Source of the DNA: Candidatus Moraniibacteriota bacterium
GTDB taxonomy: Bacteria; Patescibacteriota; Minisyncoccia; Moranbacterales; GCA-2747515
Assembly (NCBI GenBank): GCA_027039165.1
Contig: JALWEZ010000190.1
Coordinates: forward strand, 1-8,109
DNA: 8,109 nucleotides
Direction: 5' to 3'
The position numbers were made by a program, and so were the translations under genes. Of this stretch, positions 1,619 to 6,034 are shown piece by piece (position 1 is the stretch's first letter; each line of letters opens with the position of its first letter). The notes beneath the pieces were generated by a model. The model did not search any database. It saw only the letters and a list, made by a program, of their open reading frames with translations, and had not been told where the DNA came from.

Positions 1619-1873
1619 TTAAGAATTATCTTTTTTATCTGGAACTGGATCAAAACCACCCTCATTCCACGGAGTACATGATAAAATACGCTTCAAACCC
1701 ATCCATCCACCTTTAAACAGACCAAATCTAGAAATTGCTGTATAAGTGTATTGAGAACAAGTTGGGTGATATCTGCATAATCTCTCTGAATATACAAAAG
1801 AAAGTATCCCATGATCTAGTGAAAGAGTCTTTTGATAAACTTTTATAAGCAATAATACAATTTTTGTTACCAT
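1619..1873 (-). CDS. yidD: YidD, membrane protein insertion efficiency factor
   Basis: The 84-residue product matches the YidD family along its whole length. An N-terminal amphipathic helix (about residues 3-17) is followed by the signature [10 protein letters not shown] (33-42), the central AI.RFG..KG stretch and the C-terminal [13 protein letters not shown] (66-78). The conserved cysteines are 33, 39 and 66. YidD is a small, inner-membrane-associated protein that assists the YidC/Sec route of membrane protein insertion. In many bacteria it sits between rnpA and yidC near rpmH; here it is instead in an aspS-led cluster. Its ATG overlaps the end of the spermidine-synthase-like gene by 7 bases (ATGGTAA), which suggests translational coupling, and there is no separate Shine-Dalgarno site. 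The loop LSLDHG at 17-22 resembles the SPDHG form I associate with Patescibacteria. Identification is secure; the taxonomic hint is weaker. Confidence 0.96.
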
Positions 1874-3984
1874 CTTATTATATCAAATATATAAGAATAA
1901 TCATCACTCCAAGGCTTTATGTCTTTTATTTCTTTTTCTTGTGTGTTGTATTTGTCATATCTCAAATTATCTTTGTTTACAAAACCAACCCAAAGGGATT
2001 TTATTTTTATATCTTTATGATTTTTCCATTTAGCATTATCAAAATAAACTGCCTTTTTGTCCAGTCTTTCAGCTTGATTTTTCATAATTGGAAGTAAATC
2101 CAAAAAAGTATTAGAAATATGAACAAGTAATACACCATCTTTTTTAAGATGTTTTTCATACAAATCAAATGCTTCATTTGTAAGTAAATGAACCGGAATT
2201 GCGTCATCTGAAAAAACATCTACTATAATAATATCAAATTCTCTTGAACCTTTATTTTTCAATTCATCCTCTAATTTAATCCTTGCATCTCCAAGTACTA
2301 CTTCTGAATTCTTGCAAGAATCCAAATATGTAAAATACTTATGAGCAATATCAACAACTTCTTTATTTATTTCGTAAAATACATACTTATCACCTGGCTT
2401 ACAATATGCAGCAATTCCACCAGCTCCAAGTCCCAAAACTCCAACTTTTAAATTCTTATTATTTTTTTCCAAATCATCCAAAACTACTCCAAGTCCACTT
2501 TCTTTTACATAATAAGATGTCGGTAAACTTTTTTCTCCCTTTTTTACATTTTCTACTCCATGAATAATATTTCCATTTATCAACTCTCTGCTTATGATAC
2601 CATTTTTTTCTTTGTGTTCTGTAATAGTTAAAACACCATAAAAACTTCTATTTCTGTAAATAACATTATCATCGTTTTTTTTATAAAAATAATCACCAAC
2701 AAAACTTGCGACAAAAATAAAAAATACGCCAAAAACAAAACTATATCTAACTTGTTTTTTATTTAGCTTTATAAAACCATTTTCAGTTAAAAAATTTTTA
2801 CTCAAAGCTTCTTTAAAAATAACTAGAAGTACAAAACTTGAGATAACTAAATTTAATTCAAAATAGGTATCAAAAATTAGTGGCATAACTATATTTATAA
2901 TAAGCCCTCCTAAAACCCCACCGATAGCAATACACAGGTAATAAAAAGGTAATAATTTCTTGGTAGGACGTAACAAGTAGAGTACTCTATGAGCGTACAC
3001 AAAAAAGAATGGTAATATAATTAATAACAATGAGACAACTTCAAAAAATTTACCACTCAAAGTTTCACTGACTATACTTGGTATTATATTAAATCCAACA
3101 AGAACTAAGCTTATTATGTACAAAAAGGATAAGCTTAGGATGAATTTTATATATTTAATTATGAATTTCGAAGTAGATAATTTCCAAGTACGAAAAGCAA
3201 AGACGTAAGAAATGATGTACCCTATAAGAGGTAAAAGCCAAGAGAAAGGACCAGCAGAAATACCCTTTGTAGTGACCTCAGTTACAGTCAGAAGGATTGC
3301 ACTAGTTAATGTTGTTATAAGAATCCAAAGAACCCATTTAATTCCTTTAAAAGGAGTTATTAAGCCAATATTTTCATCATTTTTAGTAGATGGAGTTTTG
3401 TACATAAGGACAAGTATCAAAATTCCATATATTGCAAATAAAAACGCCCAGAAATTTCCTTGAGTACTTAAAGGTACATAAGCCTCCAAAACAATTGGAT
3501 AACACAAAAGAGCTAAAACTCCTCCTAAATTTGAATAATTATACAGATCATATGGATTATCTTGAGTCTTTGATGCCCAATATTGAACCAAAATACTTGT
3601 AGTAGAAAGTAAGAAATAAGGAATTCCAACGCTTACAGTAAGTCCAAGTATAACCATTAATGTAGGATTATTTACTTGAAACAACCCACCAAATTCTGGC
3701 ATTATAGGAGTAATCCAGTTACTGAGCATTGCATGCACAACTAATAATCCTACAGAAAATATTACAACAAGCAAATGAATTTCTTTGTGTTTTCTGACAA
3801 TACTTAAGCTAAGCCAATATGAATACAAATATCCCACAAAAAGCATTGTCATAAAAAAGAGCATTGATGCAATCCAAACACTTGATTCACCACCAAAAAA
3901 CGGCAAAAAATACTTCGCTATTATTGGTTGAACCAAAAAAAGAAGAAATGAACCCAAAAAAATAGTAACTCTATACAAAAACAT
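1867..3984 (-). CDS. Fused multi-pass membrane protein / spermidine synthase-like aminopropyltransferase
   Basis: A 705-residue two-part protein. Residues 1-430 are membrane-embedded with about 13 hydrophobic segments (for example 4-25, 37-56, 69-88, 108-130, 152-172, 216-236, 312-330, 348-368, 413-429). The N-terminal pattern with [15 protein letters not shown] at 18-32 is typical of the family annotated as fused MFS/spermidine synthase. Residues about 440-700 form a Rossmann-fold spermidine-synthase domain: nucleotide-binding loop [10 protein letters not shown] (514-523), acidic YEIN with Glu538, LGDAR with Asp566, and [14 protein letters not shown] (589-602), which holds the likely catalytic acidic residues. 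It ends near PWSDDYS. Soluble spermidine synthases transfer aminopropyl from decarboxylated S-adenosylmethionine to putrescine; for the membrane-fused family the substrate is not established. The gene starts 18 bases after aspS and overlaps yidD by 7, so it is probably in the same transcript. No clear ribosome binding site precedes the ATG. Fold is confident, activity is inferred. Confidence 0.9.
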
Positions 3985-4002: not shown

Positions 4003-5781
4003 TTATGATCGAACAACTCTTATATGAAACTCTTCTAATTGTTCCTTATTCACTTCTGTTGGAGCATTTAACATCAAATCTCTACCTTGTCCATCCTTTG
4101 GAAAAGCATACACATCTCTTATAGAATCGCTATCAGTGAGCTCCATAAAAAGCCTGTCAATTCCAGGAGCTATCCCACCATGAGGTGGCGCTCCATAAGA
4201 AAATGCATCAATCATATGACCAAACTTTTCATATACCTCTTCTTTAGAATACCCTGCAATTTCAAATGCTTTATACATTATTTCAGGTTTGTGATTTCTT
4301 ATAGCTCCACTTGAAATCTCCCAACCATTTAATATCAAATCATATTGATACGCTAATATATCAAGCGGATCCTTTTGTTCTAGATCACTCATTCCTCCTT
4401 GAGGCATAGAGAAAGGATTATGAGAAAAGTCAATTTTTCCTTCTTCAAGCTCAGAATAATCATACATTGGAAAATCAACAATCCAAGCCCAAGAAGCAAC
4501 TAATTTATCTTTTAAATTCAATTTATCTCCACATGCAGATCGCACAGCTCCAAGTGCATCGCAAACTGTTCTCCAATTATCCGCACCAAAAAATATTATA
4601 TCTCCTACTTTTGCACCTAATTTGTCAACTATCTCATTTGCTAAGTCATTACCTAAAAATTTAACAATTGGAGATTGTAAATTGTCTTTATTTACAACTA
4701 TATAAGCAAGTCCCTTTGCTCCAGCATCTTGAGCTATTTTTGTAAGCGCATCTATATCACTTCTAGAAAAAGCTTCTCCTCCACCATCAACTTTTAACGC
4801 ATGCACTACTCCACCATCTTTCACTGCCCCAGAAAATACACCAAAACCACAACTAGCAACCATTTGAGTAATAGGTTTAATTTCAAGACCAAATCGCAAA
4901 TCTGGCTTATCTGATCCATATTTTTCCATAGATTCTCTCCATGGAATTTGCCTAAATGAATCTTTTGTTATCTTTTTGTTACTAAACTTTTCTGTAAGCT
5001 CTCTCATTATAGGTTCTATTACATCAAAAATATCTTGTTGCTCCACAAAACTCATTTCCATATCAAGCTGATAAAATTCCCCATAATGTCTATCTTTTCT
5101 AGGATCTTCATCTCTAAAACATGGTGCTATTTGAAAATATCTATCAAAACCACCCACCATAAGAAGTTGTTTAAATTGCTGTGGTGCTTGAGGTAGCGCA
5201 AAAAACTTTCCTTCATATATCCTAGATGGAACCAAAAAATCACGAGCACCCTCTGGTGAAGAAGCTCCAAGAATTGGAGTTTGAACTTCCGCAAAGTCAT
5301 TTTTTCTAAAATATTGCCTAATATGCTCTATAAAATCTGCTTTTTTCTCGATTTGGTTTCTAATTTTCTCCCTTCTTAAATCCAAATATCTATATTTAAG
5401 CCGAAGAGCTTCATTAGCTTCTCCACCTTTTTCACCACTAACATCAAATGGTGGAGTTTTTGCTTCATTTAAAATTTCTAATTTTGCAACTTCTACTTCC
5501 ACTTCTCCAGTTTTTAGCTTTGGATTAATCATTTCACTTGGTCTAGCAACAACCTTTCCAACAATGTTTATAACCCACTCATTTCTCAGTTTATCTGCGA
5601 TTTTATGTGCTTGAGTGCTCACTTCTGGATCAAATTTAATCTGAGCTATACCGCTTCTATCTCTCAAATCTATAAAAATAACTCCACCATGATCTCTTCT
5701 GTGATGAACCCAACCAGATAATTCTACTTCCTTACCGATTTCTTTTTTTGATATTTGTGTGCATTTATGTGTTCTATACAT
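4003..5781 (-). CDS. aspS: Aspartyl-tRNA synthetase, possibly non-discriminating (Asp/Asn)
   Basis: A class IIb synthetase of 592 residues that activates aspartate with ATP and loads it on tRNA-Asp. The N-terminal OB-fold anticodon domain spans about 1-105 with GWVHHRRDHGG (23-33). The catalytic domain shows motif 2 in CFRDEDPRKDR (221-231) and motif 3 in GIDRLFMEL (540-548), preceded by GAPPHGG (530-536). The bacterial GAD insertion lies at about 280-410. I start at the ATG (MYRTHKC), the usual family N-terminus. An in-frame TTG 30 bases upstream is rejected because it lies inside the terminator hairpin of the leader. AGGA stands only 2 bases before the ATG, too close for a normal Shine-Dalgarno site. 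His31 matches the residue tied to relaxed Asp/Asn specificity in the Pseudomonas enzyme, so this AspRS may also charge tRNA-Asn; an amidotransferase (GatCAB) would then be needed elsewhere. It is the first gene behind the T-box leader. Confidence 0.97.
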   Translation of the reverse strand: MYRTHKCTQISKKEIGKEVELSGWVHHRRDHGGVIFIDLRDRSGIAQIKFDPEVSTQAHKIADKLRNEWVINIVGKVVARPSEMINPKLKTGEVEVEVAKLEILNEAKTPPFDVSGEKGGEANEALRLKYRYLDLRREKIRNQIEKKADFIEHIRQYFRKNDFAEVQTPILGASSPEGARDFLVPSRIYEGKFFALPQAPQQFKQLLMVGGFDRYFQIAPCFRDEDPRKDRHYGEFYQLDMEMSFVEQQDIFDVIEPIMRELTEKFSNKKITKDSFRQIPWRESMEKYGSDKPDLRFGLEIKPITQMVASCGFGVFSGAVKDGGVVHALKVDGGGEAFSRSDIDALTKIAQDAGAKGLAYIVVNKDNLQSPIVKFLGNDLANEIVDKLGAKVGDIIFFGADNWRTVCDALGAVRSACGDKLNLKDKLVASWAWIVDFPMYDYSELEEGKIDFSHNPFSMPQGGMSDLEQKDPLDILAYQYDLILNGWEISSGAIRNHKPEIMYKAFEIAGYSKEEVYEKFGHMIDAFSYGAPPHGGIAPGIDRLFMELTDSDSIRDVYAFPKDGQGRDLMLNAPTEVNKEQLEEFHIRVVRS

Positions 5782-5799: not shown

Positions 5800-5850
5800 A
5801 AAAAAACCCAATATGTTAAAAAATAAAAACTTATCTTAAAACACATAGGG
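5800..5850 (-). terminator. Intrinsic terminator of the aspS T-box leader (attenuator)
   Basis: On the minus strand CCCUAUGUGUU (5850-5840) pairs with AACAUAUUGGG (5817-5807), with one U-U mismatch and one G-U pair. The stem continues beyond a UU/UU internal loop with AAGAUAA (5837-5831) pairing to UUAUUUU (5826-5820) around the loop GUUU. The stem is followed directly by seven U residues (5806-5800). The first five bases of the 5' arm, CCCUA, are also the 3' arm of the antiterminator, so the two structures exclude each other. This is the standard arrangement of a transcription-terminating T-box. It ends 18 bases before the aspS ATG and should cut transcription of aspS and the genes behind it when the controlling tRNA is charged. 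Confidence 0.85.
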
Positions 5851-5882
5851 ACGATTATAGCTATAAACGTGGTGCCACCCTA
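5846..5882 (-). promoter_or_regulatory. T-box antiterminator with tRNA acceptor-binding bulge
   Basis: The core AGGGUGGCACCACG (5881-5868) matches the T-box consensus AGGGUGGNACCGCG except for one A in place of G. Helix A1 is UAGGG (5882-5878) with CCCUA (5850-5846). The seven-base bulge is UGGCACC (5877-5871). Helix A2 starts ACG (5870-5868) with CGU (5853-5851) and continues through UUAU/AUAA around an AGCU loop. In the known mechanism UGGN of the bulge pairs with the NCCA end of an uncharged tRNA and stabilises this structure over the terminator. Here N is C, which calls for a tRNA with G at the discriminator position. Bacterial tRNA-Asp and tRNA-Asn both have G73, so the bulge agrees with control of aspS. 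Confidence 0.92.
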
Positions 5883-5990
5883 CTTTACCTACTGCAGTAA
5901 GCCTCATTTAATACGATAACGGATATTAACCGAAAAGTTCTACTCAACAAAATTGTTTTTCTTCTTTCTCCTCCACAGTGTTTTCTGCTT

Positions 5991-6010
5991 CAATGGATTT
6001 ATAACCATTG
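5991..6010 (-). repeat. Inverted repeat overlapping the -10 element and start point
   Basis: CAATGG (6010-6005) and CCATTG (5996-5991) are perfect inverted repeats around an 8-base AT spacer. They cover the end of the predicted -10 box and the expected start point. The palindrome could be an operator for a dimeric repressor or chance in AT-rich DNA. It is not followed by a T-run, so it is not a terminator. If transcription starts near 6000 it would not be fully transcribed as a hairpin. Confidence 0.4.
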
Positions 6011-6034
6011 TATCACAAGAATGCAAAATTACAA
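6007..6034 (-). promoter_or_regulatory. Predicted sigma-70 type promoter of the aspS leader
   Basis: The minus strand has TTGTAA (6034-6029), a 16-base spacer, and TACAAT (6012-6007) preceded by TG one base upstream, which makes an extended -10 element (TGATACAAT). Transcription would start near 6000 and give a leader of about 219 nt before the aspS ATG. It begins just after the stop codon of the upstream GT2 gene at 6044, in the only gap large enough for a promoter. The -35 match is moderate. Read-through from the upstream glycan genes is also possible because I see no terminator between 6043 and 6013. Confidence 0.6.

Follow-up and report, generated by a model that had tools for sequence, protein, structure and literature searches.

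An ultrashort, loop-decoding T-box leader predicted to read tRNA-Asn upstream of aspS in a Moraniibacteriota genome

Class III T-boxes are described as having a short Stem I whose apical loop, of five or six nucleotides, contains the specifier; they need Stem II and are mostly translational (PMC10482949). In the ileS leader of Nocardia farcinica, C14 lies in the apical loop and the specifier A16-U17-C18 is followed by A19 (PMC10651847, PMC7583486). Here, we analyse a window of 8,109 nucleotides (the whole stretch of DNA under study, positions 1 to 8,109 of contig JALWEZ010000190.1) from a Candidatus Moraniibacteriota bacterium, in which the minus-strand leader of aspS shares with the N. farcinica leader the short Stem I, the kink-turn, the lack of a distal double T-loop module and the apical-loop specifier. 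An S-turn Stem II and a IIA/B pseudoknot are likewise shared, represented here by sequence signs only (GA/GA with a 3-nt bulge, AGUA, CGG/CCG and UUAAUA/UAUUAA), and the N. farcinica numbering agrees with the NN-codon-A loop of the aspS leader. The N. farcinica leader is translational, Ile-specific and actinobacterial, whereas the aspS leader has a transcription terminator, carries AAC (Asn) and belongs to the Patescibacteria. Control of translation initiation, a usual rather than an absolute feature of class III ("mostly"), is replaced in the aspS leader by an intrinsic terminator with U7.

With the class I transcriptional T-boxes (RF00230, B. subtilis tyrS type) the aspS leader has in common Stem II, Stem IIA/B with the F-box, Stem III, an antiterminator with a UGGN bulge and a terminator; it differs from them in having neither the long Stem I nor the internal-loop specifier, and it leaves no room for the double T-loop module. 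Saad et al. (2012, 2013) reportedly described T-box control of tRNA-dependent amidation in C. acetobutylicum, that is, of the AspRS/GatCAB route through tRNA-Asn, by a leader said to be of the long-Stem I Firmicutes type with more than one codon; here, in contrast, a single codon is found in a mini-hairpin. No report of a T-box riboswitch in Patescibacteria, Parcubacteria or candidate phyla was found in the open-licence full-text literature.

We consider it very probable that the aspS leader is a T-box with an ultrashort Stem I presenting AAC in a hexaloop, in which uncharged tRNA-Asn is predicted to favour the antiterminator and thereby read-through into aspS. Judged by its sequence, it is a loop-decoding T-box of the class III type combined with a transcription terminator, neither decoding-free nor a wholly new class.

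Anatomy of the leader

The gene downstream of the leader, aspS (minus strand, 4003..5781), encodes an aspartate--tRNA ligase of 592 aa that scores in the profile search as the ordinary bacterial type (NF001750 818 bits and TIGR00459 680 bits, both over the cut-off). Its seven nearest named relatives (61-68% identity) are labelled Patescibacteria, Parcubacteria, Moranbacteria, Falkowbacteria, Paceibacterota or just "bacterium", and on these labels the genome is assigned to the Patescibacteria. Farther downstream on the same strand, a YidD-type membrane insertion factor (1622-1873) adjoins a fused MFS/spermidine-synthase-like protein (1870-3984).

The Rfam T-box covariance model RF00230, which the preliminary description had proposed running, matches the minus strand from 6002 to 5844 over its whole length (model positions 1-219) with 69.5 bits and an E-value of 3.7e-15. 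This score lies below the gathering score of 93, so that the default threshold returns no match; nevertheless, given the full-length alignment, the leader is a real T-box. A predicted sigma-70-type promoter (TTGTAA-16-TACAAT, with TG ahead of the -10; minus strand, 6007..6034) rests on a consensus match only, of a kind found three times on both strands of a 501-base region, against an average of 1.8 in shuffles. It places the predicted transcript start near 6000, immediately 5' of Stem I, with the -10 ending 9 nt upstream of that stem. It is unlikely that the end of the glycosyltransferase gene folds into a long Stem I, since the -10 lies so close to Stem I and the model is matched end to end from 6002.

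Stem I occupies 29 nt (minus strand, 5997-5969), which bears out the exceptional shortness claimed earlier, and is delineated by the covariance-model alignment, folding, a check of the letters and pair counts. It comprises a C-helix (UCC/GGA), a kink-turn signature (an AUU bulge, with GA 5991-5990 opposite GA 5973-5972 in tandem) and a hairpin GCAG/CUGU closed by the hexaloop AAAACA; the 5' strand is UCC-AUU-GA (5997-5990) and the 3' strand GA (5973-5972) plus GGA (5971-5969). The preliminary description had taken Stem I to be nearly missing, a view that does not hold, as the kink-turned stem begins just upstream of the letters taken for it there. Its supposed 5' base, GGAGGAGAAAGAAG, is indeed present at 5974-5961, but GGAGGA (5974-5969) within it is the 3' strand of Stem I. 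Likewise, GAGUAG follows 15 nt later as stated (5945-5940), and the 4-bp AACA/UGUU helix with a tetraloop, offered as the only candidate for Stem I, exists (5957-5954 / 5949-5946) but tops Stem II above its AGUA segment. The absence of any GAC or GAU triplet is confirmed between 6000 and 5878, on the T-box side; the AAC specifier sits in the apical hexaloop (minus strand, 5982-5980, loop positions 3-5), in a register that comes from comparison with ileS leaders (AUC) and other aspS leaders (AAC or GAC), so that there is no need to invoke a leader that senses only the acceptor end or one that decodes with a separate element.

The remaining elements are in place on the minus strand, as had been stated for Stem IIA/B, Stem III, the antiterminator and the terminator; the covariance-model alignment delimits each as far as the antiterminator, together with folding or, for the pseudoknot, a pseudoknot scan. 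Stem II (5933..5968) has a lower helix GAAAG/CUUUU, an S-turn segment containing AGUA (5944-5941) and the upper helix AACA/UGUU. It is followed by the Stem IIA/B pseudoknot (5908..5932; IIA CGG/CCG, IIB UUAAUA/UAUUAA, F-box CCGUUAUC), by the Stem III hairpin (5887..5902) and by the antiterminator (5847..5881), whose T-box bulge UGGCACC (5877-5871) begins with a UGGC (5877-5874) complementary to the GCCA end of a G73 tRNA, as are the tRNA-Asn and tRNA-Asp of this genome. The intrinsic terminator (5800..5850), found by folding, consists of CCCUAUGUGUU / AACAUAUUGGG (5850-5807) and U7 (5806-5800) and folds at -14.7 kcal/mol; a simple terminator scan passed over it, as that scan counts only loops of 3-8. 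Antiterminator and terminator are mutually exclusive, because both need CCC 5850-5848. Stem I and Stem II fold weakly when taken alone (-3.7 and -1.1 kcal/mol, respectively).

The Stem I hairpin and its codon among relatives

The genome of the window (G000, 92% complete) has a second T-box, upstream of ileS (L001, 73.7 bits to RF00230), with a Stem I of the same plan, AGC-UAU-GA-A-GGAG[AUAUCA]CUCU-G-GA-GCU, and AUC at loop positions 3-5. Its bulge UGGU fits A73 of tRNA-Ile, as the UGGC of the aspS leader of the window (L002) fits G73 of tRNA-Asn or tRNA-Asp. Of 54 genomes, made up of this one and 53 relatives, 42 have T-boxes by RF00230 at E <= 0.001; all 81 matches were taken. None of the 54 genomes passes the gathering cut-off, and a scan at that threshold therefore misses this regulation; a class-wide search gave matches at E <= 1e-5 in 51 of 285 genomes, again with none of the 285 over the gathering cut-off. 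Clustering by blastp assigned the gene after the T-box in 63 of the 81 cases (ileS 30, glyS 11, thrS 11, aspS 8, cysteine synthase 3), each group being named from one representative; it left 18 matches without an assignment.

A strict, codon-blind motif (GA N, four pairs, hexaloop, N GA and at least two of three C-helix pairs) occurs in 23 of the 81 matches, against 0.55 expected from mononucleotide shuffles. All ten strict-motif ileS leaders have the codon AUC, and the seven strict-motif aspS leaders have AAC (five) or GAC (two). Register 3-5 thus gives a codon fitting the gene in 17 of 17 leaders, among which are the two of this genome where the register was first noticed, and registers 1-3, 2-4 and 4-6 do so in 1, 0 and 0; the readings AAA (Lys) and ACA (Thr) of the aspS loop were rejected on these counts. 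Four further strict-motif loops read AUC: in two, ileS is the second gene (L013, L063), in one the sequence covered contains no downstream gene (L007) and in one another gene follows (L026). Two strict-motif matches (L041, L059) do not fit. The motif is an incomplete description, as it misses 20 of the 30 ileS leaders and one of the eight aspS leaders, some of the misses having hairpins of greater length, inserted bases or a Stem I that was not recognised. The aspS leader missed, L035 from the same-genus genome G001, has the hairpin AUAG[UCAACA]CUAU in a looser scan.

The aspS leaders examined amount to 14: the eight among the 81 matches, L154 (Candidatus Parcubacteria RS_3_8, with a weak K-turn) and five of the 23 loci newly taken from the class-wide search (L236, L239, L243, L246, L251). 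A hairpin with a codon loop is present in every one, detected as a strict hexaloop in ten, as a strict pentaloop (CAACA) in L236, by the looser scan in L035 and by eye in L154 and L246. The codon is AAC in 11 (L002, L022, L035, L046, L049, L077, L154, L236, L239, L246, L251) and GAC in three (L010, L011, L243). Thirteen of the hairpins have a hexaloop, and in these, over 12 distinct rows, pairing is found in 48 of 48 cells. Since most of them entered through a scan with pairing as a requirement, this completeness is in part built in, and the evidence lies in the two-sided changes. Such changes affect 13 cells, as compared with 3.4 in shuffles, and the covariation score of 0.80 (0.23 in shuffles) was reached by none of 500; slid pairings fail.

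The recurrence of the same short form in L035 and 12 further aspS leaders makes an assembly deletion very unlikely. It had also been suggested that a short form conserved with compensatory changes would define a new T-box class: the conservation is there, with changes on both sides of the hairpin, and the layout fits class III rather than a wholly new class.

Other elements vary more freely. The IIB arms differ in sequence and pair in most aspS leaders (UUAAUA/UAUUAA, GUUUUGC/GCAAAGU, UUGAACG/CGUUUAA, UGCGA/UCGCA, AUAGC/GCUAU); the pseudoknot scan found no IIA/B pseudoknot in L046, and L154 has one of another form. The T-box bulge is UGGC in seven of the 14 aspS leaders (L002, L154, L236, L239, L243, L246, L251) and UGGU in the other seven, the same-genus L035 included. 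Pairing of UGGU with a G73 tRNA would require wobble; from the bulge letters, then, a Watson-Crick match to G73 is not general among these leaders. A hairpin followed by a T-run lies after the T-box in 37 of 38 ileS and aspS leaders, by a loose criterion used without a chance control.

Among 80 named aspS loci searched upstream with a regular expression, four have a T-box: L154 and the Clostridia-type L171, L203 and L211, the latter three being T-box-like leaders before aspS in Clostridia/Oscillospiraceae MAGs. The same scan gave none at the closest relatives (L153 and L155-L159, of which L156 has little upstream sequence).

Several further leader types were observed in the course of this survey. 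T-box-like leaders with a UGG stem (GGUUGGGUCU or UUGAUUGGGACC) occur at L240, L241, L242, L040, L047, L058, L060, L062, L065, L249, L250, L252 and L255, some of them before tryptophan-biosynthesis-like or tryptophanyl-tRNA synthetase-like proteins (gene names by eye), and seem to form a T-box family for tRNA-Trp within this class; L249 and L255, like L236, contain T-box leaders. By eye, and more weakly than for Ile, Asn and Asp, the loop GUGGCG (GGC) is seen in two glyS leaders (L038, L039) and CGUGCG (UGC) in a cysteine synthase leader (L052); also by eye, a serS-like leader (L237) has UCC in a longer loop and thrS leaders have ACC in larger loops. Leaders of another conserved type (AACACGUCUUCGGAGCGGUUAG...), likewise scoring with RF00230, are found at L233, L235 and L056, before small proteins where downstream sequence is present.

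AspRS, tRNA-Asn and the competing readings

No AsnRS over the curated cut-off was found in any of the 54 genomes, as opposed to 7 of 14 control genomes, or in four further genomes with an aspS T-box (G266, G225, G293, G106; G116, the source of L236, lay outside this search). In the genome of the window, the AsnRS profile has only two matches, one of 114 bits to the AspRS and one of 84 bits to a protein, probably LysRS, encoded on contig C163. GatB is over the cut-off in all eight genomes searched, this one included. The tRNA-Asn(GUU) of this genome, identified by RF00005 and ARAGORN, has U1-A72 and G73. U1-A72 is the pair recognised by bacterial GatCAB, and this pair and GatCAB alone are no proof of the pathway where AsnRS is present (PMC4206432). 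Because no AsnRS passes the cut-off, GatB is present and tRNA-Asn has U1-A72 and G73, the AspRS most likely charges tRNA-Asn too, with GatCAB then amidating the product. If so, uncharged tRNA-Asn would be a sensible signal for aspS, and the lack of an AsnRS over the cut-off would explain an Asn rather than an Asp specifier before this gene. The three GAC leaders are also in genomes where no AsnRS was found, and AAC is therefore not dictated by the pathway; that both codons occur before aspS is in keeping with an enzyme acting on two tRNAs.

The gene behind L236 encodes an archaeal-type AspRS scoring over the cut-offs of two models for aspartate--tRNA(Asn) ligase, including TIGR00458 (aspS_nondisc), and its leader has AAC in the loop; this AspRS scores 239 bits with the AsnRS profile. 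Histidine at AspRS position 31, which we take to be a mark of non-discriminating enzymes, is invariant in eight of eight.

Matches of 212-300 bits to the AsnRS profile occur in 21 of the 54 genomes and may be archaeal-type AspRS, as L236:1763-3067. Contig C163 of G000 (1513-2820) contains a 711 aa frame that matches class IIb synthetases and probably represents a LysRS with an additional segment, and G001 has a similar frame of 712 aa. A pattern search for tRNA-Asn and tRNA-Asp returned noise, four checked tRNA-like matches being tRNA-Ser(GCT).

The leader most likely senses tRNA-Asn. In the mechanism that we propose from the sequence, the GUU anticodon of uncharged tRNA-Asn would pair with AAC, Stem I, with the bend given by its kink-turn, would dock with the S-turn of Stem II as in class III structures, and the free GCCA end would pair with UGGC and hold the antiterminator. 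Without uncharged tRNA-Asn the terminator would form, which would amount to control by transcription attenuation. As a non-discriminating AspRS would make Asp-tRNA-Asn for GatCAB, uncharged tRNA-Asn would report its shortage.

Among other readings, a leader responsive to both tRNA-Asn and tRNA-Asp would be compatible with the G73 that both tRNAs of this genome have and with the GAC of three aspS leaders; yet AAC is mismatched with the anticodon GUC at codon position 1 and is the codon in 11 of the 14, and we regard a double response as unlikely. The same architecture could also act on translation initiation, as published class III T-boxes mostly do (PMC10482949), but there is an overlap between the antiterminator and a hairpin followed by U7, and the terminator, which ends 5' of the AGGA/AUG region (5790-5779), does not include it, which leaves translational control quite improbable. 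A decoding-free T-box, having lost Stem I and sensing only the acceptor end of the tRNA together with Stem II contacts, might account for the missing GAC and GAU, and the interval from the predicted start to Stem II is too short for a stem of the usual T-box length; against this stand the codon-loop hairpin upstream of Stem II in all 14 aspS leaders, its stem changed on both sides, and the fit of the loop codon to the downstream gene in all 17 strict-motif ileS and aspS leaders, so that we give this reading very little weight. A decayed, non-functional T-box, to which the score below the Rfam gathering threshold and an only modestly low minimum free energy (z -1.47) might point, is hardly credible, since all elements are present, paired changes run across leaders and the sister genome keeps the form (L035), and the low score, with no genome of the 54 passing the threshold, is a property of the lineage.

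Significance for Patescibacteria and for T-boxes

Taking the tRNA-Asn-reading T-box as the best account of the aspS leader, we think it likely that transcriptional T-boxes are numerous but unannotated in Patescibacteria, that their mini Stem I decodes through its loop and that a change of the loop codon (AUC, AAC and GAC; by eye GGC, UGC and others) redirects them from one tRNA to another. Loop decoding would then belong to T-boxes in general rather than being peculiar to translational leaders of actinobacteria, and aspS would be governed by tRNA-Asn charging, the last part of the tRNA-dependent route to asparagine, with single-base switches between Asn and Asp. The leader would extend a tRNA-reading design known from actinobacterial ileS genes. 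Terminator-bearing leaders with a Stem I of about 29 nt would mean that sensing during transcription can do without the elbow contact as long as Stem II is present, and the one-base difference between AAC and GAC before enzymes that likely charge both tRNAs would make the aspS leaders a natural experiment in riboswitch retargeting.
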